From contig JABGXB010000001.1 in the NCBI GenBank assembly GCA_018675975.1, positions 1-59,201 on the forward strand: DNA of 59,201 nucleotides, written 5' to 3'. Below the pieces are notes generated by a model, which saw only the letters and a program-made list of their open reading frames with translations, ran no database searches and had not been told where the DNA came from. Shown in pieces: positions 2,073 to 34,512 of this stretch (position 1 is the stretch's first letter; every line of letters starts with the position of its first letter). The position numbers and the translations under genes are program-made. This stretch comes from Candidatus Woesearchaeota archaeon (GTDB taxonomy: Archaea; Nanobdellota; Nanobdellia; Woesearchaeales; JABGXB01).

Positions 2073-3023
2073 TTATTCTTTTTTTTTAATTAATAATTTA
2101 GGATATGCAATTGACCAAAATATCGTAAAATATAATAAAAATAAGACCCATCCAGCATTTGTATGAAATAATCCTAAACTTAAACTACTATTATATACTC
2201 CTATAATTAATAATATCAATATTCTTAATAAAATTATCACAAAAATGCCTATTATGCCAATAAAATAATAAACAATTACTTTTTTTTTATTTAATAAATC
2301 AAAATCTAAAGATAAAAATATAAAAAATAGAGATGAAAATAAAATTAAACTATCTGTTCCAGAACATAATGCAGTTATACTTACTCCAAAATTTTCTATA
2401 TATATAGATGGTGCTAAATTTGTTAAATCAATTGTAATATTATATCCTAAAAATGTTAAAATCATTTGTGAAATGTTTGCCATAAAATTTGCTATGTGAA
2501 ACCAAAGCAAATTACCAACACTAACAATGAAAATGATAACTAATGAAAGTGAAGCTGAGAGAATGAAATCCCCATATCTTTTTTTTATATGATGAATTCC
2601 ATAAAAATTAATACATAATAGTATGAAAAATATTAATGTAAATATATTAATTAAAATTTTATTTACTAAAAATAATGAAATTATAAAAATGATTATGGTA
2701 AAAACAATTAAATAGTAATCTAACTTGATATATTTTAATTTGAATTTAAAATCTTTTTTTGATATGAATGAAAATATTAATATTATGAATATATATAAAA
2801 AAATATTTGTAAAAAAATTCTGAAAACCTAAACTTGCAAGTTTATAATCTATATAATTTGTTCTTAAATAGGGTATATATGTAAAATTTAAATTTCTTAA
2901 ATAAAATGTTGTTATTAATGTAAATGTTAAAGCTAAGATTTTTAAAATGTTTTTAGTTAAATTTTTATTTTCACTATTATTAATATTTTTATTATTAGTT
3001 CTGTTTTTATTATTTTCTTCCAT
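2073..3023 (-). CDS. Archaeosortase/exosortase family membrane transpeptidase
   Basis: A 316-residue protein with a polar Asn-rich N-terminus followed by about eight hydrophobic segments. The three family residues are visible in the expected order and spacing: Cys220 in ITALCSGTDS, Arg267 in LLRILIL and His287 in LFHTNAGW. Members of this family cleave C-terminal sorting signals (motif, transmembrane helix, basic tail) on the outer face of the membrane and are thought to transfer the protein to a lipid. The gene starts 28 bases from a palindromic TATA box that it appears to share with the divergent site-2 protease gene. A protein with a PEF-CTERM-like tail is encoded at 17012-22792 and is the obvious candidate substrate. 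The subclass cannot be assigned by eye. Confidence 0.88.
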   Translation of the reverse strand: MEENNKNRTNNKNINNSENKNLTKNILKILALTFTLITTFYLRNLNFTYIPYLRTNYIDYKLASLGFQNFFTNIFLYIFIILIFSFISKKDFKFKLKYIKLDYYLIVFTIIIFIISLFLVNKILINIFTLIFFILLCINFYGIHHIKKRYGDFILSASLSLVIIFIVSVGNLLWFHIANFMANISQMILTFLGYNITIDLTNLAPSIYIENFGVSITALCSGTDSLILFSSLFFIFLSLDFDLLNKKKVIVYYFIGIIGIFVIILLRILILLIIGVYNSSLSLGLFHTNAGWVLFLLYFTIFWSIAYPKLLIKKKE

Positions 3024-4352: not shown

Positions 4353-4718
4353 ATGAAAAAAAAGATTCTAATAGTGGAAGATGATGATAATATTTTGAAC
4401 TTATTGAATATTATTTTATCTGAAGATTATGAAACTAAATTGGCAAGAAATGGCAAAGAAGCTTTGGATTGTTTAAATGATTTTTATCCTGATTTAATTA
4501 TTTTAGATATAATGATGGAAGTTATGGATGGAATTACTGCACTTCAAAAAATAAAAGAGAATGAAAATACAAAATCAATAAAAGTTGTAATGTTATCGGC
4601 TAAATGTCAAAAGTCTGATATGATTGTGGCTAAAGAATATGGAGCTGTCGATTTTATAACAAAACCTTTTGATCCTGTTCAGTTAAAGGAAATGGTTAAA
4701 GATTTGATTTTAAAGTGA
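4353..4718 (+). CDS. Stand-alone CheY-like response regulator receiver
   Basis: A 121-residue receiver domain with nothing after it. The acidic pocket is in VEDDDN (about residues 8-12), and the phospho-acceptor Asp is in LIILDIMM (about residue 53). The conserved Ser/Thr is in VVMLSAK and the Lys in FITKPFDP. Its stop overlaps the kinase start as GTGA, so the two are translationally coupled and almost certainly partners. With no output domain it must act by protein-protein contact or relay. The HTH regulator at 7532 has no receiver and is the nearest candidate output. Confidence 0.93.
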   Translation: MKKKILIVEDDDNILNLLNIILSEDYETKLARNGKEALDCLNDFYPDLIILDIMMEVMDGITALQKIKENENTKSIKVVMLSAKCQKSDMIVAKEYGAVDFITKPFDPVQLKEMVKDLILK

Positions 4719-7477
4719 ATTTTAATATACTTTCTTTTGGTCAATGTTTTATTGATCTTTATGGTAGCAAATTAGATCAAAATTATGTTAGTTTAAATTA
4801 TAATTTAAGACTTGGTGGTGGTTCTGGTATTTTTGCTATTGCATGTTCAAGGTTTGGACATAATTGTGGTTTAGTATCAACATTTAGTACTGATTCTTTT
4901 GGGCAGTTTTTAATCAATATGTTTCATAAAGAAAAAGTAGATTTAAAATATACTGATATGACTGAACAGAGAACTCCTTTAGAATTTGTTGAAAGTTCTA
5001 AAAGTTTTACAGATTACAAATTTTATGACAAAAATCCATCTCCATTTAAAATTAATGAAAATAAAATTGATTTTAATATATTTAACAAAATTAAAGTATT
5101 TTATTTTACATCTTTTATATTAACTGATAATGATAATTATGATATATTATTAAAATGTATTAATTGTGCTAAAAAAAATAATGTTTTAATTTATTTTAAT
5201 TTAGATTTTCGTTCCAGAATTCATAAAACTGATAATTTTTATAAAAGAGTAATTGAAATTTTAAAACAAACAGATTTTGTAATTTCTAATATAACTGATT
5301 TTCAACAATTATTTAAAAATAATAATGAAAAAATTTTAACAAATAAATTAATTAATTTTGGTTTAAAAAAAATAATTTATACTTATGGTAAAAAAGGTGC
5401 ACATTTAATTAATTGTGATGGTAGTGAATATAAAACTAAAATTGTTTATGATCTTCCTGCTAAAGATAGAACTGGGGCTGGAGATATTTTTGCAGCAAAA
5501 TTTATTTGTAATTATATGGATGGTTTTTCTGATGAAAATAATTTAAATATATGTCATAAAATTGCAGCTTTTTCTACAATGAAATATGGTGCTATAGAAT
5601 CAATTCCAAAAGATGATGAATTAGAATTATTAAATAAAATAAATTCAGATGATGATTTATTATTTGATGATACTAATTTCTTATTGAATTTAATTGACAA
5701 AAATAAAAATAAACTATTTTTTTCTAATTTTTTAAAAGAAAAACATTCAAATGACAGTCTTATTATAACTCAAAAAACATATTCAAAAATTAAGAAATAT
5801 ATAAATAAAGCATCAAGCAATATAATTTATATGACTAATTCTCCTAAAAATAAACAGAGTTATTTACCAACCAGACTAGAGCAATTATTTTTTATTATAA
5901 ATTTATTTTCTATAAAACACAAAGGTGGATTTATTTTAATAGAGTGTTTAGATTTTTTATTAAAACATAATTCTTTAACAAAAGTAATTTATTTTTTAAG
6001 ACAAATAGCAGATTTATCAATAATGACTAATATTCGTTTTGCATTATTAGTTGATTATACAAAATTATCTGATGATGTTATTTATGAGTTAAAAAATTAT
6101 CAAAATAAATTTAAAAAAGCTCAACATCATAGAGAAGATAGTTCATTAATTGATTTTAAAGGAAAATTTTTAAAAAGTAATTTAGAAGGAAATTTAGTTG
6201 ATGTAAAAGATAAAGATGAATTATTTAAAAGAATTAAAGATACTTTACGTGATATATATGATTATTCTTTTGTTAATATATTTTTATTTGATGGAAATGT
6301 TTTAGTTAATACAAATAAGCATGCAAAAAGGCGTTTTATACATTTAAATAGTGATAATATTTTTAAAAAATGTGTTGATGATAATAGGGAAATTGTAATC
6401 AATTCATTAAATGATGATCTTTATTATAAAAATAAAAAAATTGGGGATGATTTAGAAACTGTTTCGACTATTTATTTTGGGTCTGATTTTATTCCAACTG
6501 TAATAGTTCCAGTTGGTAAAGAGCAATTATTAGGTGTTGTTGAATTATCTAAAAATAAAAAAATTAAATTAGATAGTGAAGAATATAATGAAATATTATA
6601 TTTTATTAAAAATTCTTTTTTTTTAGCAGAAATATTTATTTTAAAAGAACATGCTACTAAAACAAGTAAACGTCTTAAAGAATCTGATGAATTAAAAAAT
6701 AATTTTATATCAATGATTTCACATGAGCTTAGAACTCCATTAACTAGTATACGTGGTTATACTAGTATATTAAAAACAAATAAAAATAATAATTTTAATA
6801 AAAATCAAGAGGATATATTAACAATTATAGAAAAAGAAACATCAAATTTAACATCAATTATTAATGATTTACTTGACGTATCAAAAATTGAAAGTGGTAA
6901 ATTAGATTTATTTTTAGATAATGAGAATTTAAAAGATATTATAAAAGATGCAATTAAAATTATGGAAGGTTTTGCATTTGAAAAAGGTGTTAGTTTAGAA
7001 TTTGAAAAAGTATTTAAAGTAATAGTTAATGTGGATTGTAGTAGAATTCATCAAATATTTACAAATTTATTGAATAATGCAATTAAATTTTCTTATCCTG
7101 GAACTTCGATTAAAATAAATATGTCATTACATAAATTAACTGGTAAAACTATTAAATCATTACAAAAGAAATTTGATAGTGATGATAATAATTTTGATGT
7201 TAAATTATTAAATATTTCAAATGAGGAAGTTAAAGATTTTGTTTGTGTGGAAATTGGAGATACTGGTATTGGTATAGAAAATAAAAATATTTCTCTTTTA
7301 TTTGATAAATTTTTTCAAGTTTCGAATCATTTAACTAGATCAACTACTGGTACTGGTCTTGGTTTGAGTATTGTTAAATATTTAATTGAATTACATAATG
7401 GATTTATTGATGTTGAGAGTGAAATTAATAAAGGTAGTCAATTTAAGGTTTATTTTCCTTTAATTGATGAAAATTAA
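4715..7477 (+). CDS. PfkB sugar kinase-DUF835-GAF-histidine kinase fusion
   Basis: A 920-residue protein starting at a GTG that overlaps the receiver stop. Residues 1-305 form a ribokinase/PfkB domain: a glycine-rich substrate motif (LGGGSGIFAIACSRFG, 33-48) and the ATP/catalytic motif DRTGAGDIFAA (251-261) with the base Asp257 intact. Residues about 345-465 resemble DUF835 (GGFILIECLDFLLKHN). About 500-645 looks like a GAF domain. The kinase core follows: His670 in the H-box SHELRTPL, an N-box near 789, GDTGIGI near 848 and GTGLGLSI near 885. There are no transmembrane segments, so it is cytoplasmic. The N-terminal domain could sense or phosphorylate a sugar or nucleoside and control autophosphorylation; this is inference. 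Confidence 0.9.
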   Translation: MNFNILSFGQCFIDLYGSKLDQNYVSLNYNLRLGGGSGIFAIACSRFGHNCGLVSTFSTDSFGQFLINMFHKEKVDLKYTDMTEQRTPLEFVESSKSFTDYKFYDKNPSPFKINENKIDFNIFNKIKVFYFTSFILTDNDNYDILLKCINCAKKNNVLIYFNLDFRSRIHKTDNFYKRVIEILKQTDFVISNITDFQQLFKNNNEKILTNKLINFGLKKIIYTYGKKGAHLINCDGSEYKTKIVYDLPAKDRTGAGDIFAAKFICNYMDGFSDENNLNICHKIAAFSTMKYGAIESIPKDDELELLNKINSDDDLLFDDTNFLLNLIDKNKNKLFFSNFLKEKHSNDSLIITQKTYSKIKKYINKASSNIIYMTNSPKNKQSYLPTRLEQLFFIINLFSIKHKGGFILIECLDFLLKHNSLTKVIYFLRQIADLSIMTNIRFALLVDYTKLSDDVIYELKNYQNKFKKAQHHREDSSLIDFKGKFLKSNLEGNLVDVKDKDELFKRIKDTLRDIYDYSFVNIFLFDGNVLVNTNKHAKRRFIHLNSDNIFKKCVDDNREIVINSLNDDLYYKNKKIGDDLETVSTIYFGSDFIPTVIVPVGKEQLLGVVELSKNKKIKLDSEEYNEILYFIKNSFFLAEIFILKEHATKTSKRLKESDELKNNFISMISHELRTPLTSIRGYTSILKTNKNNNFNKNQEDILTIIEKETSNLTSIINDLLDVSKIESGKLDLFLDNENLKDIIKDAIKIMEGFAFEKGVSLEFEKVFKVIVNVDCSRIHQIFTNLLNNAIKFSYPGTSIKINMSLHKLTGKTIKSLQKKFDSDDNNFDVKLLNISNEEVKDFVCVEIGDTGIGIENKNISLLFDKFFQVSNHLTRSTTGTGLGLSIVKYLIELHNGFIDVESEINKGSQFKVYFPLIDEN

Positions 7478-7531
7478 ATTTTTAAAAATATATACTATAA
7501 TTTTATATACGTGTTTTTATATTAATTTATT

Positions 7532-8233
7532 ATGAATAAACAGTATTCTACATATGTATCCAGAAATGAAAATTTGAATCAAATTAAACCTGTATTAGAT
7601 AAAGCTCTTGAAAGTTTTTTGGGTGTTAAAATAGATAAAATTTCTAATGAAATTTTAGAAAAATTAGTGAAAAATAATTTAAATATTGATTTTTTAGATA
7701 GTTGGAGTTTAGAAGAAGCAAAGTTTAATTTTAAAAAAGATTATTTAATTAAAGTTTTAAGAGAATTTAATGGAAATATATCTAAAGCTTCGACAATTAG
7801 TGGAATTGATAGAAGAACTATTCATAGATTGATTATTCAATTTAATATTGATATAGAAGAATTTAGAAATTTACCATATCATTTTTCAAAAAAAAAAATT
7901 GATGATTATATTAAATTTGTAGCTGGAGATGTTTTAAAACAATATTCACTTACTGAAAAAAAAAGTGAATTAATTTATGGTTTACCTACTGATGAATTAG
8001 TAAAAGTTATTAAAAAACCATTTCCAAAAATGGAAGATGCATATGATTTTTTTGAATATAAATTTTTAGTAGCAGTTATTTTAAAAAATGATAAAGTATT
8101 GAAAGATGTTTGTAAACAATTAAAAATAGCAAGAGAGACTTTGAGTAGAAAAATTTCTAAACATAAAATTAATATTAAAGATTTAAATATGGATTTTAAA
8201 GAAAATAATATAAAATTAGAAGAATTAATTTAA
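7532..8233 (+). CDS. Transcription regulator with two Fis-like helix-turn-helix segments
   Basis: A 233-residue soluble protein. Residues about 60-106 read like the C-terminal Fis-type HTH of bacterial NtrC-class activators (LEEAKFNFKKDYLIKVL, then NGNISKASTISGIDRRTIHR). A second similar element spans about 170-215 (KDVCKQLKIARETLSRKI). There is no AAA+ or receiver domain. It follows the kinase by 54 bases and has its own TATA-like TTTTATATAC 26 bases before the ATG. Position suggests it is the DNA-binding output of the two-component pair, with or without contact to the receiver. A bacterial origin for this HTH type is plausible; the target genes are unknown. Confidence 0.78.
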   Translation: MNKQYSTYVSRNENLNQIKPVLDKALESFLGVKIDKISNEILEKLVKNNLNIDFLDSWSLEEAKFNFKKDYLIKVLREFNGNISKASTISGIDRRTIHRLIIQFNIDIEEFRNLPYHFSKKKIDDYIKFVAGDVLKQYSLTEKKSELIYGLPTDELVKVIKKPFPKMEDAYDFFEYKFLVAVILKNDKVLKDVCKQLKIARETLSRKISKHKINIKDLNMDFKENNIKLEELI

Positions 8234-8339: not shown

Positions 8340-8588
8340 ATGGACGAAATTCAAAAAGCAGAACAAATAGGTGTACATAAAGGTGCATTAGCTACTCTTG
8401 CGAAAGAAAGAGAAGAATTAGCTAAAATGATAGGTGTAGTTGAACAAATAATTCAAATGCATGTAAAAGCATTAAAAGAACTTGGTGTAGATTTAGAAGC
8501 TCAAGCAAAAGAAATGGCTGAAAAAGCTAAATCTGAAAGTAATACTGAACCTAAATCAAGTGCAAATAGTTTAGAAGATCAGTTATAA
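8340..8588 (+). CDS. Small helical protein of unknown function (82 residues)
   Basis: I do not recognise the family. Residues 1-50 form an amphipathic helical stretch rich in Ala, Glu and Lys (GALATLAKEREELAKM), probably a coiled coil. A polar Ser/Asn-rich tail follows. Its base composition is visibly less A+T-extreme than its neighbours, and it has a good ribosome binding site, its own TATA box and a T-rich terminator. Together these suggest a well-expressed single-gene unit. No motif points to a function. Confidence 0.75.
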   Translation: MDEIQKAEQIGVHKGALATLAKEREELAKMIGVVEQIIQMHVKALKELGVDLEAQAKEMAEKAKSESNTEPKSSANSLEDQL

Positions 8589-25971: not shown

Positions 25972-26916
25972 ATGGCATCAGCACTTAATACTCTAAATCA
26001 AGTAAAAGAAGTATTTGTAAAACTAAAGGAAGAGTTAGGAAAAATAATTGTGGGACAAGAACATATTATTGAACATGTTTTAATTTCAATACTTACTAAT
26101 CAAAATGCATTATTAGAATCATATCCTGGTTTAGGAAAAACATTACTTATTAAATCCATATCTGAAATTTTAGATTTAGATTTTAAAAGAATACAAAATA
26201 CTCCTGATTTAATGCCATCAGATGTAATTGGTACTTATATTATTGATGAGAGTAGAGGAAAAAAACAATTTGTTTTTCAAAAAGGTCCGGTTTTTGCAAA
26301 TTTAGTTTTAGCAGATGAGATTAATAGAGCGACACCAAAAACTCAAGCTGCACTTTTAGAAGCGATGGCGGAGAAACAAGTAACTGTTGGGAATGAAAAA
26401 TTTGAATTAGAAGCACCGTTTTTTATCTTAGCAACACAAAACCCAATAGATCAAGAAGGTACATATCCATTACCTGAAGCTCAAATTGATAGATTTTTAT
26501 TAAAAATTGTATTGGATTATCCAAATGTAAAAGAGGAAATTGAAATTTTAAATAGATTTGCATCAAATTTTAAAGTTCCTAAATTAAAACCAATTATTAA
26601 AAAAGATTCATTATTAATATTACAAAAATTAACTAGGCAAGTTCCAATTTCTGAAGATATTAAAATTAGAGTGGCAAAAATTATTAATAAAACTAGAACA
26701 AATAAAGAATTAATTGCATATGGTGCAAGTCCTAGGGCGACTATTGGTTTAATTTTAGCATCAAAAGCAAGAGCATTAATTCATGGTAGAAAATTTGTAA
26801 GTAATGATGATGTTAATGAAATGGCATTGCCAGTTTTACGTCATAGGATTATATTAAATTTTAAGGCAGAAAGAAGTGGTTTAACTATAGATGATGTTAT
26901 AAAAAAATTATTATGA
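25972..26916 (+). CDS. MoxR-family AAA+ ATPase
   Basis: 314 residues. Walker A is YPGLGKTLL (about 44-52), Walker B LVLADEINRA, sensor ATQNPIDQEGTYPLPEAQ, and there is an arginine-finger region; this is the typical MoxR plan. MoxR ATPases work as chaperone-like partners of von Willebrand factor A proteins encoded beside them. Here the partners are the DUF58 and two VWA proteins downstream, six bases and further away in the same direction. Confidence 0.94.
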   Translation: MASALNTLNQVKEVFVKLKEELGKIIVGQEHIIEHVLISILTNQNALLESYPGLGKTLLIKSISEILDLDFKRIQNTPDLMPSDVIGTYIIDESRGKKQFVFQKGPVFANLVLADEINRATPKTQAALLEAMAEKQVTVGNEKFELEAPFFILATQNPIDQEGTYPLPEAQIDRFLLKIVLDYPNVKEEIEILNRFASNFKVPKLKPIIKKDSLLILQKLTRQVPISEDIKIRVAKIINKTRTNKELIAYGASPRATIGLILASKARALIHGRKFVSNDDVNEMALPVLRHRIILNFKAERSGLTIDDVIKKLL

Positions 26917-26922
26917 TTTACC

Positions 26923-27774
26923 ATGATAGATTTAAAGTTTTTGCGTGAATTAGAAAAATTTAATTTAATATTGCAAAATAAAGTAAGTTCTAATTATTCT
27001 GGTCAAAGAATAAGTACTCATGGTGGTACTGGTTTAATATTTAAAGATTTTACAACATATTCTAGAGGAGATGATTTTAGAAAAATTGATTGGAAATTAT
27101 ATGCAAGGACTGAAAAATATTATTTAAGACGTTATGAAGAAGAAAGAAATTTAACTTTACATATTGTTTTAGATGCGAGTAGTTCAATGTCATTTGGAAC
27201 ATTATCTTCAAAATTTGAATATGCATCAAAGTTAGCATTAGGTTATGCATTTATTGCATTTAAAAATAATGAAAAGTTTGTACTATCCACTTTTTCAGAT
27301 GACTTAACTTTATTTAAACCAAGTAAAGGAACAAATCAATTAATTAATATTTTAGATCACCTTAATGGACTTAAAATAAAAGGGCAAAGTAATTTTTTAA
27401 ATTCTTTATTATTATATAAAAAAAGAATATTTTCAAAATCATTAATTGTAATTTTGAGTGATTTTTTATTTAATATTGATGATATAGATCAAGTTCTTGC
27501 ACTCTATAAAAATAATGAAATTGTTTTAGTTCAAATTCTCGATAAAACTGAAGCCAGATTAGATATTGACGGAGAGTATTTGTTAACTGATGAAGAGAGC
27601 AATACATCTGTTAAAACTTATGTTTCTAATAGACTTAAAAAAAGATATAAAAATAATTTACAACATTTTCAAAAAGATTTATCTGATATTTGTGATAAAT
27701 ATGGAATTAAATTTTTAAAAGTGAGTAATGAAAAAGATATTTTTGATGTTTTTTATGAATTATTTCATGGATGA
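26923..27774 (+). CDS. DUF58 protein with VWA-like domain
   Basis: 283 residues, cytoplasmic. The DUF58 core is FTTYSRGDDFRKIDWKLYAR (about 44-63), followed by a VWA-like fold with the metal-site motif LDASSSMSF (about 84). These proteins are standard partners of MoxR ATPases, and the gene starts six bases after the moxR-like stop. The role of the complex in archaea is not settled; envelope integrity or assembly of large complexes is commonly proposed. Confidence 0.92.
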   Translation: MIDLKFLRELEKFNLILQNKVSSNYSGQRISTHGGTGLIFKDFTTYSRGDDFRKIDWKLYARTEKYYLRRYEEERNLTLHIVLDASSSMSFGTLSSKFEYASKLALGYAFIAFKNNEKFVLSTFSDDLTLFKPSKGTNQLINILDHLNGLKIKGQSNFLNSLLLYKKRIFSKSLIVILSDFLFNIDDIDQVLALYKNNEIVLVQILDKTEARLDIDGEYLLTDEESNTSVKTYVSNRLKKRYKNNLQHFQKDLSDICDKYGIKFLKVSNEKDIFDVFYELFHG

Positions 27775-27845
27775 TTAATTAATTAGATCTTCTGTGTTTA
27801 AAGATTAATTTTATAAAGCGATTTTCGTCTATAAATTATGATATA

Positions 27846-29654
27846 ATGGCAAATTTTTTATTAAATTATTTTCATGAACCAATTAACTTAGTTTGGTTAC
27901 TTGCTCTTATTCCAATTGTTATATTTTATTTAATTAAAAGTAGGCCAAAGAAGTTAAATTTGCCTACTACGAGATTTTTATTTAAAGATGGAAATTCAAA
28001 AAACTTTAAATCATTTTTTTCAAAATTTCAATTTGATCCAATTATATTATTACAATTTTTAGCTTTATTTTTTGCAATATTTGCAATTTCAATTCCGCAT
28101 TTTCCAATTGAAAGGGAATTAGTGGCAGGTCATACTGTTTTTGTTATAGATAATTCAGCTAGTATGGACGTTGATGATAATTTTAAAAAAGTAATAAAGA
28201 CTGCAAAAAATAATTTGGGTTCTGAAAATAGTATAATTACAATAAGTCCAAATCCTAAACTTCATGTAAATAATGTAAATGCAGATGAAGCCGAAAAAAT
28301 ATTGGACGGAATTAAAATTTCTCATGGTGGGAGCTTTTACAAAGATTCAATTAATTTTGCTAGTCAAATAATTAAAAATAAAGAAAAAAGTAAGATAGTA
28401 GTTTTAGGTGATTTAATTGATAGTTCTTTTGAAATTGATTATAAATTGTTAACTACAAATTTAGAATCAAAAGGAAATTTTATTGATTATGTTCAAATTG
28501 GTGGACGTGGAGATAATGTTGGTTTTGTAGATGTTTTATTTGGTGAGTCAAAAACTACTTTGTATATCAAAAATTTTGGTAAGAAAAAAAATATAATTGT
28601 AACGGTTGGTGAAACTAAATATCCTTTGAAAATTGATTCATCTTCAGTAAAAACATTAGTTTATGATAATTTAAAAAATAATCATGTAGTAGAAATATTA
28701 ACTGAAGATGATTTTTTAGTTGATAATAAACTTTATATTAGTGGGCAAAAAGTGGATGAAATGAAAATTTTATATGTAACTAATAATCCAAGTGACAGTT
28801 TGTTAAAGGCATTATCTGTAAATAAATTTATTACAGTAGAAGTTGTAAAGCTACCTGTTTTTCCTACAATTGATCATGATGTAATTATAATTGATAAAAT
28901 TACTAAAGATTTATTTTATGATGCAAGAGTTAGTGAAATTAAAAAAGCAGTTGAGGGTGGAAAATCATTAATTATTATTCCAAATAAAGAAATGTTTGAT
29001 ATCGATTGGCAAGGTTTGTGGGATGCAAAATTAATTAATATAAGTGATGATAATGAATTAATAAGTCCTGCAAGTCCAATAAATTTTATTTCAAGTACTG
29101 AATTTGGAAATATAAAAAGTCCATATTTAATTGAACATAGTAAAAATTCATTAATACTTGCTGCAACACCATCAAGTTCTATAATAACATTAGATAAAAT
29201 AAAAAAAGGAAATGTGGTTTATTATGGAATGAATGATGAGAATTCTGATTTTAAATATACATTTCATTATCCAATATTTTTTAAAAATTTAATTGATTTT
29301 TTGAGTGGAAAAGAATCATTAAGTAATTTAAATTTTAAAACGGGAAGTAAGCTTCCTTTCAAAGGGGATGTTGAAGTAAGAACATCTTTAGGAACGACAA
29401 AATTGAGTAATCCTCAATTTGATAAAGTTGGTTTTTATACAGTAAATAAAAAAACAATAGGAGTAAATTTATTAAATGAAAGAGAAAGTCAAATTGTATT
29501 TGATAGAGATGAATATATAAATAATAAAGCAGGAAATGTAAATATTGAACATAGAGGTACAGTGGATACTAATATTTATTGGTATTTATTAATTATTTTG
29601 GCCTCCATATTATTAATTGAATTATTTATAGTTAAGTTTAGAGGTGACTTATAG
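27846..29654 (+). CDS. BatA-like membrane VWA protein
   Basis: 602 residues. The N-terminal BatA-type segment has two membrane helices (about 15-30 and 60-80). A VWA domain with FVIDNSASMDVDD follows, then a long beta-rich region, and a C-terminal membrane helix (YWYLLIILASILLIELF). A TTTTATAAAG box at 27809-27818 gives this gene its own possible promoter within the operon. It probably sits outside the cell membrane, anchored at both ends. Confidence 0.88.
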   Translation: MANFLLNYFHEPINLVWLLALIPIVIFYLIKSRPKKLNLPTTRFLFKDGNSKNFKSFFSKFQFDPIILLQFLALFFAIFAISIPHFPIERELVAGHTVFVIDNSASMDVDDNFKKVIKTAKNNLGSENSIITISPNPKLHVNNVNADEAEKILDGIKISHGGSFYKDSINFASQIIKNKEKSKIVVLGDLIDSSFEIDYKLLTTNLESKGNFIDYVQIGGRGDNVGFVDVLFGESKTTLYIKNFGKKKNIIVTVGETKYPLKIDSSSVKTLVYDNLKNNHVVEILTEDDFLVDNKLYISGQKVDEMKILYVTNNPSDSLLKALSVNKFITVEVVKLPVFPTIDHDVIIIDKITKDLFYDARVSEIKKAVEGGKSLIIIPNKEMFDIDWQGLWDAKLINISDDNELISPASPINFISSTEFGNIKSPYLIEHSKNSLILAATPSSSIITLDKIKKGNVVYYGMNDENSDFKYTFHYPIFFKNLIDFLSGKESLSNLNFKTGSKLPFKGDVEVRTSLGTTKLSNPQFDKVGFYTVNKKTIGVNLLNERESQIVFDRDEYINNKAGNVNIEHRGTVDTNIYWYLLIILASILLIELFIVKFRGDL

Positions 29655-29657
29655 AAT

Positions 29658-32159
29658 ATGGTAGATTTTACTTATTTTGAATTATTGTATAGTATTCCAA
29701 TTTTACTTTTAATTAATTATATTTTTATTAAATTTAATTTTGTTAAATTAAATCCTCATGATCCTGATTATAAAACTAGGACTGAAAAAAGAATAAAGCA
29801 ACAAAGAATGTTACTTTTATTTAGATCTATTTTAATTGTATTAATGGTTTTAGCAATTAGTGATCCAATTATAAAAACACATACTGATTTGGAAACGGAT
29901 CCTTATATTAAAATAATAGTTGATAAAAGTAGTTCAATGGAATTATTTAGTGAAAATAAAATAAATGATTTAATTACAGAAATTGGAGTGAAAGTTGATA
30001 ATTTGAAAATTTTATCTTTTGGTAATGATATAAGTCCAGGTTTATTTTTATCGACAAATGCAAATCAAGGTGAACATATATTATTCATAACAGATGGTTG
30101 GGATAATATTAATGGTGATTTATCAAATTCAATTAATTATGTAAAAAGTTTAAATTCAACAGTTCATACATTACAATTGCATCAACAAAAAAAAGATTCA
30201 CCAATTTCTATTTTAGGACCGAGTAAAGTTATTGAAGATATTGATAATGCATTTAAAGTTAAAATTTTAGGTAAGAATAATATTAAAATTAGTGTTGATA
30301 ATAATGAAATTTTTAAAGGTGAGATTGAAGATAGTCATGATTTAAAATTAAGTTTTTTAGATGGTTCACATACTATTAAAGCTGAAATTTTAAAAAAGGA
30401 TTATTTTTCGCAAAATAATATATTTTACAAAACAGTTCATACTATAAAAAAACCAAAAATTGCAATGGTTGGTCCTGCAAATGTTTTGTATAATACTTTG
30501 AGTAAAAAATATGACATTACAAAATTTTCGTCAATTCCAAATGATTTAACAAATTATCATTTAGTAATTGTTTATGATAAAAATATAGATGAATTGGGTG
30601 ATACTTCTAGTTTAGAATCATTTATTATTGATGGTGGTGGTGTTATTGTTTTTGGTGGTTCTAATTCATATGATAGGGGTGGATATGAAGGAAGTAATTT
30701 TGAAAAATTATTACCTGTTTCAGTTGCATCTGCACAAAGAAAAAGATCACCATCAAATATAGCATTGATTGTTGATGTATCAGAATCTGGTAAAGATTTT
30801 AGTGGTGCGGGTATATCTGTTTTAGATTTACAAAAATCAGTTGCACATGAATTTGTTAAAAATACTGCTGGTTATCATAATTTAGGTTTAATTGTTTTTG
30901 CATATAGACCATATTCAGTTAGTGAAATGAGTACTTTAGTTGAAAAAAAACAATCAATATTGTCTGATATTACAAAATTACAAGCAATTGGTGGTGGAAC
31001 TTATATTGCTCCATCATTACGTATGGCAAAACAATTTTTTGTTAATGCAAAAGGTGATAAAAATATTGTATTAATTTCAGATGGTAAACAATTTTTACGT
31101 AATTCTGATGGTGCAGTAAGAGAAATGATTAAAGTTGCTGGTGATTTGAGAGAAACAGGAATTAAAATTCATGTTATTCAGACTGGTGAAATTTCATTTG
31201 AAAGTTTAAGAAAATCATTAGAACAAAATTTAAAAAATGCAAAAAGCGATCCTGAAAATTATGGGTCTGCACAAATTGAATATTTGGAGAGTGTTACTGA
31301 TCGAGAAATTAGAGAGAAAGTAGATTTATATAAAGGATTATTTGATGATTCAATGAAGGCAATTTCCGAAATTACAAATGGATATTATTTTAAATTAAAT
31401 GATAGAAAAAAATTAAATATATTATTTAGTGATCCTGATGGTGAAGATTTTGAACCTCAAAATATTGCCACATTTATTGATTCAAATCATTTTATTTCAA
31501 GAGATTTAAGTTTAAATGCAAAACTTCCTGGATTTAATAATGTAGTTTCTAAATCCTCTGGTAGAGTTATTGCAACATTAGATACAGGTGAACCAGTAAT
31601 CACTACAAGAAGATATGGATTAGGTCGGTCAGTTTCAGTTACTGCATTTAATCCACCAAGTGGACTTGGTGAATTAATTAATCATAAGGAAGTTATTGGA
31701 AGAATGATTAACTATGGAATTGGAGATCCCAATAGACTTGAAAGTTTTGTTATTGAAGTAAAAGATGGATTTGCAAATACAACAAATACAATTACTGTAA
31801 AGTCAGATATTCCGCCAACTCATAAAAAATTAGTTTTTTCAAGTATAAAACCTAATGTTTATGAAAGTTCAATAATGCACGATTCAATAGGTGTTTTTAA
31901 TATTTTTAATAAACCGTATTCAATAAATTATAATCCTGAATATTTAAATTTAGGTTATAATGAAGATTTTATTAGTCAAATAAGATTATTTGGTGGAACT
32001 GAATTTGATTATGATGCAGATCAAATAATTGAATATTTAAGAAGTATTAATATTGCAAAACAAACGAAAACTATTTATGTATTTAAATATTTTATAATGT
32101 TAGCTATATTAATATATTTATCAGAAATATTTATTAGAAGGTATTTATCAAAAACATAG
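29658..32159 (+). CDS. Membrane protein with two VWA-like regions and a glutamine-amidotransferase-like domain
   Basis: 833 residues. Two N-terminal membrane helices lead into a VWA-like domain (VDKSSSMELF) with reduced metal site. An amidotransferase-like segment (DGGGVIVFGGSNSYDRGG) follows, then a second VWA region (LIVDVSESGKDFSGAG) and a C-terminal helix. No catalytic Cys-His-Glu triad is apparent, so the amidotransferase-like fold is probably structural. It starts four bases after the upstream VWA gene and is the largest partner of the MoxR system here. Confidence 0.86.
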   Translation: MVDFTYFELLYSIPILLLINYIFIKFNFVKLNPHDPDYKTRTEKRIKQQRMLLLFRSILIVLMVLAISDPIIKTHTDLETDPYIKIIVDKSSSMELFSENKINDLITEIGVKVDNLKILSFGNDISPGLFLSTNANQGEHILFITDGWDNINGDLSNSINYVKSLNSTVHTLQLHQQKKDSPISILGPSKVIEDIDNAFKVKILGKNNIKISVDNNEIFKGEIEDSHDLKLSFLDGSHTIKAEILKKDYFSQNNIFYKTVHTIKKPKIAMVGPANVLYNTLSKKYDITKFSSIPNDLTNYHLVIVYDKNIDELGDTSSLESFIIDGGGVIVFGGSNSYDRGGYEGSNFEKLLPVSVASAQRKRSPSNIALIVDVSESGKDFSGAGISVLDLQKSVAHEFVKNTAGYHNLGLIVFAYRPYSVSEMSTLVEKKQSILSDITKLQAIGGGTYIAPSLRMAKQFFVNAKGDKNIVLISDGKQFLRNSDGAVREMIKVAGDLRETGIKIHVIQTGEISFESLRKSLEQNLKNAKSDPENYGSAQIEYLESVTDREIREKVDLYKGLFDDSMKAISEITNGYYFKLNDRKKLNILFSDPDGEDFEPQNIATFIDSNHFISRDLSLNAKLPGFNNVVSKSSGRVIATLDTGEPVITTRRYGLGRSVSVTAFNPPSGLGELINHKEVIGRMINYGIGDPNRLESFVIEVKDGFANTTNTITVKSDIPPTHKKLVFSSIKPNVYESSIMHDSIGVFNIFNKPYSINYNPEYLNLGYNEDFISQIRLFGGTEFDYDADQIIEYLRSINIAKQTKTIYVFKYFIMLAILIYLSEIFIRRYLSKT

Positions 32160-32169
32160 AGGTATAATT

Positions 32170-32679
32170 ATGAATTCAGCTTTAAATAAAAATGTAAATG
32201 CAATTTTGCTTTTATTAACGGTATTTTTAATTTTAACAGTAGCAGCATTGCCTATTTATTTTGATTATCAATTATCGGAATTAAAAGATGATTATGTAAG
32301 TTCAAGAGTTATGGTTGATAATTTAACTAAATTATTAGATGATAGTAAAGGTTCGGCTCAATTTTATAAAAAAGAATATGATAGTATTGAAAAAGAATAT
32401 AATACACTTAGAAATTCATTTTCGCAATATGATGATTTATATAGTGAAACTCAAAGTGAATTAAATGAAACAAAAGAATCATTTTCAAATCAAAAATCAA
32501 TACTTGAAAATACAGTTCAAAATTTAAAATCTGATATTAATGAAAATGAAGAATTATTATCAACTTGTATTGAAGAAAGAAAAGACTTTTTAGAAGATAA
32601 AAATAAATATGAAGAAATGTATGATTCATGTTCAGATGATTTAGAAGATGCTGAAGATGAAATTAAGAGATTAAAATGA
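32170..32679 (+). CDS. Single-span membrane protein with coiled coil
   Basis: 169 residues: one N-terminal membrane helix (about 10-31) and then a continuous Glu/Asp/Lys/Ser coiled coil to the C-terminus. GAGGT seven bases before the ATG marks re-initiation in the operon. Its stop overlaps the next start as ATGA. It probably forms a scaffold or spacer with the VWA proteins; the family is not recognised. Confidence 0.8.
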   Translation: MNSALNKNVNAILLLLTVFLILTVAALPIYFDYQLSELKDDYVSSRVMVDNLTKLLDDSKGSAQFYKKEYDSIEKEYNTLRNSFSQYDDLYSETQSELNETKESFSNQKSILENTVQNLKSDINENEELLSTCIEERKDFLEDKNKYEEMYDSCSDDLEDAEDEIKRLK

Positions 32680-33470
32680 AAGATATAAATTCAATATTTT
32701 TAGAACTAAAATATGAAATTTCCAAAATTGAATTAGCAAATGCTATATTAGATTCTGTATTATTTATATTTTTATTAAAATTATTGGATTTATTTTTTGG
32801 TTTTTCTGCATTTAGTTTAGTAATGTTTACACTTATATTTTTTGGAATTAATTTATTTATTAGAATTAAACAAATTGATTTACGTAATGTTGAAAAAAAA
32901 AATCCTGTAATTAAAGATATTTTAAGAACGGCAAATGATTATAAAAATTATTTTGTGAAAAATTCTAAATCTAGTGAAGAAGATATTTTAGTTAAGGGAT
33001 TATATAATGATTTTAAATTTTTAATGCATAGAGTTAAAACTGAAACATTTATTGATATTAATTTATTTTTTAAAAAAGTAAGTTTAGCTGTATTATTATC
33101 ATTTTTATTAGTATTTGCTTCATTTATTTCAATTGATGTTTCTGAATTTTTAAATGATGTTGATAGGCAAGTGGAAGAAGCAACTAAATTAAAAACTACA
33201 CAGAGTGTAGAAGAAGATGCATTATCTACATATAATGATTTATTTGGTGAAGAAACAGATTTAATTAATTTAGATGAAGGTAATTTTGATATATCGGTTA
33301 CTGGTCAACAAATGGATATGGACGTTTCAAAAAAAACTGGATTTACATTGCAAGAGTTTGAAGGATATGAAGAATTTTATGAAGATAATGATATTAATTC
33401 TGATGAACAATTTAGAGAAGAAATAAGTAATATTGATCGTGAATTAGTAAAAGCATATTTTAAAGATTAA
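32676..33470 (+). CDS. Membrane protein, last gene of the MoxR operon
   Basis: 264 residues. Two close membrane helices (about 25-65), a charged loop, a third helix (about 130-150), then a very acidic extramembrane domain (EEDALSTYNDLFGEETD and an EFEGYEEFYEDND region). ATGA overlap with the coiled-coil gene shows coupled translation. Family not recognised; context assigns it to the MoxR/VWA complex. Confidence 0.8.
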   Translation: MKDINSIFLELKYEISKIELANAILDSVLFIFLLKLLDLFFGFSAFSLVMFTLIFFGINLFIRIKQIDLRNVEKKNPVIKDILRTANDYKNYFVKNSKSSEEDILVKGLYNDFKFLMHRVKTETFIDINLFFKKVSLAVLLSFLLVFASFISIDVSEFLNDVDRQVEEATKLKTTQSVEEDALSTYNDLFGEETDLINLDEGNFDISVTGQQMDMDVSKKTGFTLQEFEGYEEFYEDNDINSDEQFREEISNIDRELVKAYFKD

Positions 33471-33612: not shown

Positions 33613-34512
33613 TTAAAGAATTTTATTTAGTTCAGAAAATCCTTCTTGAAATCTATTATTAATAAAAGTATATTTCTTAATATCTGAAGACTCAATCCAT
33701 TCTTCAAATTTCTTTTTATTCCCTATATAATATATATGTCCTTTAGTTTTAGCTAAAACATCCCATATATGACTATCAGGAATATGTGGTGCTATACCAA
33801 TAAGAATTATTTTTTCTGCATTTTTAATAAATTCCTGCCATGATTTTTGTATAAATTCAATCATTGCTCTAGCCATTTGATTTGGTTTATTTGGAGCATA
33901 TAAACTCATACAAGGATATAATGCATTTTCACGACAATATTTAGGAACATCTTCATTATTAATTAATTTTATTCCATTTCCATGAAATGTGGCACCAGAA
34001 AGATATTTAACTGCCCCTTTTGGAGCTTGAATACCCTTTACAATAAAATTACAAGAACCATGCAATTTCCAAAGAATGGATGTGTCTTTTGCTTCTGAAT
34101 ATTTTGGAAAATAGCACATTTTTCTTTGAGCTATTAATAATGAATGTTCTATTAATGAATCATAATTAACTGTAGAAAATACATACTCGTTTATTTTATT
34201 TGAGTCAATTAGGCTATTCATTAATTGACTATAAAGATTATTATGATCACTAAGTCTAAATTCGGCAAAAAAACAGGCCATGTCTTGCATTAAATTAGGT
34301 ACAATTTCAGAATATTTATTCCACACTTCTTCCATACCTTCTTCAAAGTTATTTTTAAACATTGAAGATAATGATGAATTAAGTGCACCCCAAGTTTTAG
34401 GAAATTTATTGATTAAAATCTCAAATAATTCTGATCCTAAGGGTGGTGAGTTAGGTAGTACATTTGATAATCCTTTACTAGCGCCTGCTCCAAATAATAT
34501 AATGTTCTTCAT
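33613..34512 (-). CDS. SIR2-like NAD-binding protein (SIR2_2 type, probable defence effector)
   Basis: 299 residues, soluble. The N-terminal Rossmann motif is ILFGAGASKG (4-13). FSTVNYDSL and WKLHGSCNF follow at the spacing of SIR2_2 domains, which in many bacterial anti-phage systems cleave NAD+. The protein has no extra sensor domain, so it would need a partner; the unknown gene at 34721 is nearest. GTTATAAATTC lies 29 bases before the ATG (leaderless). Enzymatic activity is not shown by sequence alone; it could be a non-defence NAD-binding protein. Confidence 0.83.
   Translation of the reverse strand: MKNIILFGAGASKGLSNVLPNSPPLGSELFEILINKFPKTWGALNSSLSSMFKNNFEEGMEEVWNKYSEIVPNLMQDMACFFAEFRLSDHNNLYSQLMNSLIDSNKINEYVFSTVNYDSLIEHSLLIAQRKMCYFPKYSEAKDTSILWKLHGSCNFIVKGIQAPKGAVKYLSGATFHGNGIKLINNEDVPKYCRENALYPCMSLYAPNKPNQMARAMIEFIQKSWQEFIKNAEKIILIGIAPHIPDSHIWDVLAKTKGHIYYIGNKKKFEEWIESSDIKKYTFINNRFQEGFSELNKIL

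Follow-up and report, generated by a model that had tools for sequence, protein, structure and literature searches.

A PfkB-type sugar kinase domain fused to a histidine kinase in a woesearchaeal archaeon: a candidate soluble input of a two-component system

Stand-alone receivers account for about 40% of all archaeal response regulators, and the prevailing mode of archaeal signalling is through the protein contacts that these receivers make, according to the available part of an archaeal two-component census (PMC5847659). The same part describes cytoplasmic systems in which a soluble kinase consisting of HisKA and HATPase domains is encoded adjacent to a CheY-like receiver, and it labels the DUF835 domain an inactivated KaiC domain. 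PfkB-type proteins have been found in a gene-expression role in plants, where the plastid RNA polymerase complex includes FLN1 and FLN2 as subunits (PMC3409070). Here, we describe a locus that brings these elements together. It lies in a stretch of 59,201 nucleotides (positions 1 to 59,201 of contig JABGXB010000001.1; hereafter, the window) from the 1.03-Mb, three-contig genome of a Candidatus Woesearchaeota archaeon of the order Woesearchaeales, and it encodes a bare receiver and a soluble histidine kinase headed by a PfkB (ribokinase-like) domain. As in the archaeal systems of the census, a HisKA/HATPase kinase adjoins a CheY-like receiver; unlike the kinases reported in its available part, this one has a PfkB-DUF835 input and not PAS or GAF repeats. 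We propose, with a probability of roughly one in two, that a former sugar kinase serves here as the ligand-sensing input of a cytoplasmic two-component system that signals through the receiver.

Architecture of the receiver-kinase locus

The fusion of PfkB, DUF835, a weakly matched GAF-like segment, HisKA and HATPase in a single protein is real, and the Pfam E-values (Table 1) exclude chance as the source of the domain matches. The PF00294 match scored 103.1 bits against a cut-off of 25.8, spanning positions 3 to 301 of the 302-position profile, and the PF05763 match to DUF835 scored 44 bits (cut-off, 33.1). The catalytic core is that of an orthodox histidine kinase, with His670 in the H box, an N box (NLLNNAIKFS), G1 (DTGIGI) and G2 (TGTGLGLS) boxes, and HisKA and HATPase_c matches that both exceed the Pfam cut-offs. 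No obvious transmembrane helix was detected in the protein (maximum 19-residue Kyte-Doolittle mean, 1.53). A preliminary description of this DNA had named the DUF835 and HisKA/HATPase modules, which the Pfam matches confirmed, and had placed His670 and Asp257 of the PfkB domain at the positions where our motif check located them. It had also named a GAF module, and this part stood less firmly: the segment searched alone gave a GAF_2 (PF13185) match of 20.9 bits, below the cut-off of 28.6, and the whole protein gave none.

The coordinates of the open reading frames (ORFs) bore out the three previously described genes, with one correction: on the plus strand, the receiver gene lies upstream of the kinase gene. 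A gene for a helix-turn-helix (HTH) regulator begins 54 bases beyond the kinase. The GTG start of the kinase at 4715 sits in the sequence GTGA and overlaps the TGA stop of the receiver gene by four bases. One could envision that the fusion is an assembly chimera, but this is unlikely, as the open frame of 920 codons, the uniform third-position GC content across the kinase (0.04-0.09) and the four-base overlap all argue against it.

The receiver matches Response_reg over the whole of its 121 residues and has the acidic residues E9/D10, the phospho-acceptor Asp52, Ser82 and Lys104. A bare receiver was found just upstream of 14 of the 19 kinases of the order for which the fetched loci contained complete upstream DNA, the sample being those kinases most similar to the fused one. 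The genome itself contains a second receiver-histidine kinase pair (C1:306646-307524, locus L034), likewise with a four-base overlap, whose 651-residue kinase is 41% identical to the fused kinase over the core. Because such pairs are usual in the order and a second one is present in this genome, the fused kinase very likely works with this receiver, as the preliminary description had supposed. The fusion is unusual as an architecture; its kinase core and the receiver are ordinary.

The modelled structure of residues 299-652 was good over DUF835 only and of low confidence at the GAF-like segment. The closest fold to the DUF835 model was FlaH, the archaellum ATPase (4yds), followed by KaiC, which agrees with the inactivated-KaiC label in the available part of the census (PMC5847659). 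No Walker A motif (GxxxxGK[ST]) was found in kinase residues 320-460. Other DUF835 proteins of the order (L088:643-2850, L089:487-2667 and L074:1240-3042) have the arrangement HisKA_7TM-DUF835-TrkA or dCache-DUF835-HTH-like end. In these signalling proteins, as in the fusion, DUF835 has a sensor on its N-terminal side and an output on its C-terminal side; the fusion differs from them in having a sugar kinase in place of the sensor and a histidine kinase as the output. Because DUF835 in the relatives follows seven-transmembrane (7TM) or Cache sensors, the PfkB domain stands where those proteins have their sensor. Among the architectural arguments for its role as an input, this is the chief one. 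Apart from the fusion, no DUF835 protein fetched from the order was in frame with a kinase core. The fusion suggests that DUF835, as an inactive KaiC, may act as a general connector in this order, to which sensors (7TM, Cache, PfkB) and outputs (TrkA, HTH, histidine kinase) can be attached interchangeably.

The PfkB domain had been noted as a non-standard input for a histidine kinase, and the searches upheld this. With the full-length protein as query, no second PfkB-kinase fusion was detected in 353 genomes of the order, a search that scored the two best candidates per genome and that a weak fusion could escape, or in 378 genomes of the class. A PfkB-DUF835 query detected none in 371 genomes of the phylum; these three sets overlap, and other phyla were sampled only. 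When 338 genomes of the order were searched for DUF835, the loci fetched contained no second PfkB domain. A global contig scan with residues 1-462 gave no match, and a scan with the PfkB alignment gave no histidine kinase fusion in at least 80 PfkB loci among the matches listed. The available parts of two reviews of archaeal two-component systems (PMC5847659, PMC6944256) do not mention a PfkB-headed histidine kinase, and we found no report of one in the open-access literature.

Table 1. Features of the receiver-kinase locus and the adjoining regulator gene (positions in the window)
Feature	Position	Strand	Evidence
Stand-alone CheY-like receiver, 121 aa	4353..4718	+	ORF; Pfam PF00072 Response_reg residues 5-116, E=7.8e-28
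Fused histidine kinase, 920 aa, GTG start	4715..7477	+	ORF
PfkB (ribokinase-like) domain, residues 4-299	4724..5611	+	Pfam PF00294 E=2.4e-29; 131-row alignment; model
DUF835 (inactivated KaiC-like), residues 334-451	5714..6067	+	Pfam PF05763 E=2.2e-11; fold match
GAF-like segment, weak, residues ~499-622	6209..6580	+	Pfam PF13185 GAF_2 E=4.5e-4, under cut-off
HisKA dimerisation/phospho-acceptor domain, residues 661-728, His670 in SHELRTP	6695..6898	+	Pfam PF00512 E=4.1e-20
HATPase_c catalytic domain, residues 776-916	7040..7462	+	Pfam PF02518 E=5.7e-23
Double-HTH_8 (Fis-like) regulator, 233 aa, judged to be probably outside the system	7532..8233	+	Pfam PF02954, two stretches, E=7e-12

Substrate pocket and ancestry of the PfkB domain

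The PfkB domain was previously described as apparently intact, and this holds only in part. The domain, aligned separately from DUF835, retains Asp14, the Gly34-Gly35 pair and the motif TGAGD from Thr253 to the catalytic Asp257. The sugar-binding Asn of the GGxxxN motif, present in 127 of 131 aligned PfkB rows, in 51 of 51 PfkB relatives from the phylum and in the genome's two further PfkB proteins, is replaced by Ile39. Ser58 likewise stands in place of a Gly that is near-invariant (129 of the 131 rows). The count of GAGD in the 131-row set is biased because this motif was used in the scan that produced the set; positions 39 and 58 played no part in it. In the metal/phosphate motif NxxE, Asn192 is kept and Asp195 replaces Glu, a replacement also seen in 15 of the 131 rows. 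The fructose-binding residues of ketohexokinase are Asp15, Gly41, Asn42, Asn45 and Asp258, with Asn45 forming a hydrogen bond to fructose (PMC2651755). They correspond to Asp14, Gly35, Gly36, Ile39 and Asp257 of the fusion, so that both Asn residues are replaced and the others are kept.

One interpretation of this pattern is that the PfkB domain has remained a working kinase but acts on a different substrate, in which case the protein would be bifunctional and would report metabolic flux by turnover. This is the strongest rival to a sensor that works by binding, and we consider it unlikely. It would account for the retention of Asp257 within TGAGD, of Asp14 and of the Gly-Gly pair, and the NxxD variant is common in fructokinase-like rows (15/131). 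The loss of residues found at positions 39 and 58 in 127 and 129 of the 131 rows and the very long branch described below speak against it, as does the absence of sugar metabolism among the neighbouring genes that we checked, which encode an exosortase-like protein, an M50 peptidase, a short HTH_11-like protein and Dus. The preliminary description had left open whether the system senses by binding or by turnover; we favour binding, and the loss of the GGxxxN Asn weakens turnover and does not exclude it.

Four of the 131 rows also lack the GGxxxN Asn. The gene for an Anaerolineae PfkB protein without this residue (GSSSCI) precedes that for a PAS-type histidine kinase by approximately 300 bases (L229:226-3359). 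We gave this arrangement no weight as a parallel to the fusion, since it is a single case in which the genes are separate and approximately 300 bases apart.

The AlphaFold2 model of the PfkB domain was confident (predicted local distance difference test score, 83.7). Its nearest solved folds are putative ribokinases, IolC and 2-keto-3-deoxygluconate kinases (KDGK), with template-modelling (TM) scores of 0.82-0.89, including 0.87 to 3iq0. The top sequence match in the PDB was the fructokinase 3HJ6, and the NCBIfam model iolC_N reached 124 of the 300 bits that its cut-off requires. In the PfkB tree, the fusion domain forms the longest end branch (2.28, compared with a median of 0.43), and it groups in a mainly bacterial clade of fructokinase, KDGK and IolC-type rows, away from the PfkB rows of the order; the tree program warns that the placement of such a long branch is unsure, and the relatives drawn included no genome of the same family. 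Descent from the order's own PfkB genes was rejected because the domain falls with the mainly bacterial rows, subject to the same doubt about long-branch placement. A bacterial fructokinase/KDGK/IolC-like enzyme is the probable source of the domain. The domain shares with these enzymes the fold (TM 0.87), GAGD, Asp14 and the di-glycine, and differs from them in the attached histidine kinase, Ile39, Ser58 and the long branch.

A candidate sensing mechanism

The loss of the substrate-binding Asn, the longest branch in the tree, the location of PfkB in the sensor position and the standard receiver-kinase pair together lead us to prefer a sensing role for the PfkB domain. We envision that a small molecule, sugar or nucleoside-like and possibly accompanied by ATP, would bind in the PfkB cleft and shift the open/closed state of the domain. 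The shift could reach the HisKA/HATPase core by way of the inactive-KaiC DUF835 and the GAF-like segment, and would there alter autophosphorylation at His670. Asp52 of the co-translated receiver would then take up the phosphate, and the receiver might act on its target by protein contact. The fuller form of this proposal, in which a sugar kinase gained by lateral transfer and changed at its sugar-binding Asn is a soluble ligand sensor that signals through an inactive KaiC and represents an uncatalogued type of two-component input, is somewhat more tentative.

Alternatively, the PfkB domain might bind no ligand and serve as a structural or protein-contact module for dimerisation or docking, by analogy with FLN1 and FLN2. 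We regard this as improbable, more so than turnover with a changed substrate. The losses on the substrate side would be expected of such a module, and the plant proteins provide a precedent for a pfkB-type protein within the plastid RNA polymerase complex (PMC3409070). The unchanged ATP/anion-hole side and the catalytic Asp, however, suggest that the pocket is still under selection. FLN1 and FLN2, in their gene-expression role, share with the fusion a PfkB fold, with weak phmmer matches to the fusion domain, and differ from it in having no histidine kinase, in their residues and in their lineage.

Several observations weigh against the sensor that we prefer. The catalytic Asp and the anion-hole motif are fully kept, though a pure sensor need not keep them. 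A stand-alone PfkB of Cohnella (L235) that lacks the Asn adjoins sugar-transport and LacI-type genes; the loss of the Asn may therefore mean another substrate and not lost turnover, and it is no proof of inactivity, a point that also favours the bifunctional enzyme considered above. The long branch may partly reflect an AT-rich genome and sparse sampling. Finally, the fusion is one sequence only, with no second copy in which its conservation could be followed, and as a singleton it is limited in generality. Were the proposal correct, the substrate pocket of a metabolic enzyme would have been turned into a signalling pocket. The locus makes the recruitment of a metabolic kinase fold to the input of a two-component system directly accessible to testing, and does so in DPANN archaea, a group in which signalling has hardly been studied.

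The HTH regulator and neighbouring genes

As previously described, the 233-residue regulator has two Fis-like HTH segments, which Pfam gives as two HTH_8 stretches. The further suggestion that the signal passes from the kinase through the receiver to this HTH protein did not hold up, and we consider such a three-gene relay very improbable. In its favour, the gene lies on the same strand only 54 bases from the kinase, and receiver and HTH genes often adjoin in archaea, as stated in the available part of the census (PMC5847659). The regulator, however, belongs to a separate conserved family: 128 of the 338 order genomes searched encode relatives of it, and for most of these relatives the match extends over nearly the whole protein. 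No histidine kinase, receiver, PfkB or DUF835 gene was found near any of 40 relatives within the fetched flanks (up to ~7 kb), and no HTH gene adjoins the genome's other receiver-kinase pair in the fetched stretch. That the regulator gene follows the kinase gene is a peculiarity of this genome, and the protein is probably not part of the two-component circuit.

Members of the regulator family (window 7532-8233, loci L116-L155) have approximately 220-240 residues, a double HTH_8 with strongly conserved HTH residues and the invariant blocks GN/DRR.IHR and ETLxxK. No NCBIfam equivalog exceeded its cut-off for the family, which is possibly a core regulator of the order. A gene at 8340-8588 of the window, encoding an 82-residue protein with a weak HTH_11-like match, is conserved in the order, with a homologue in 7 of the 40 fetched loci (E ~1e-23).

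On the minus strand, an exosortase/archaeosortase-like membrane protein (PF09721) is encoded at 2073-3023 as the upstream neighbour of the M50 peptidase gene. Six same-strand genes in a run at 25972-33470 resemble, on inspection by eye, those for a MoxR-type AAA+ ATPase, a DUF58-like protein, two VWA/BatA-like membrane proteins, a coiled-coil protein and a membrane protein. The gene at 33613-34512 (minus strand) showed weak SIR2_2 similarity (Pfam, under the cut-off; PADLOC SIR2, E=0.002) and may encode a defence-type SIR2 protein.

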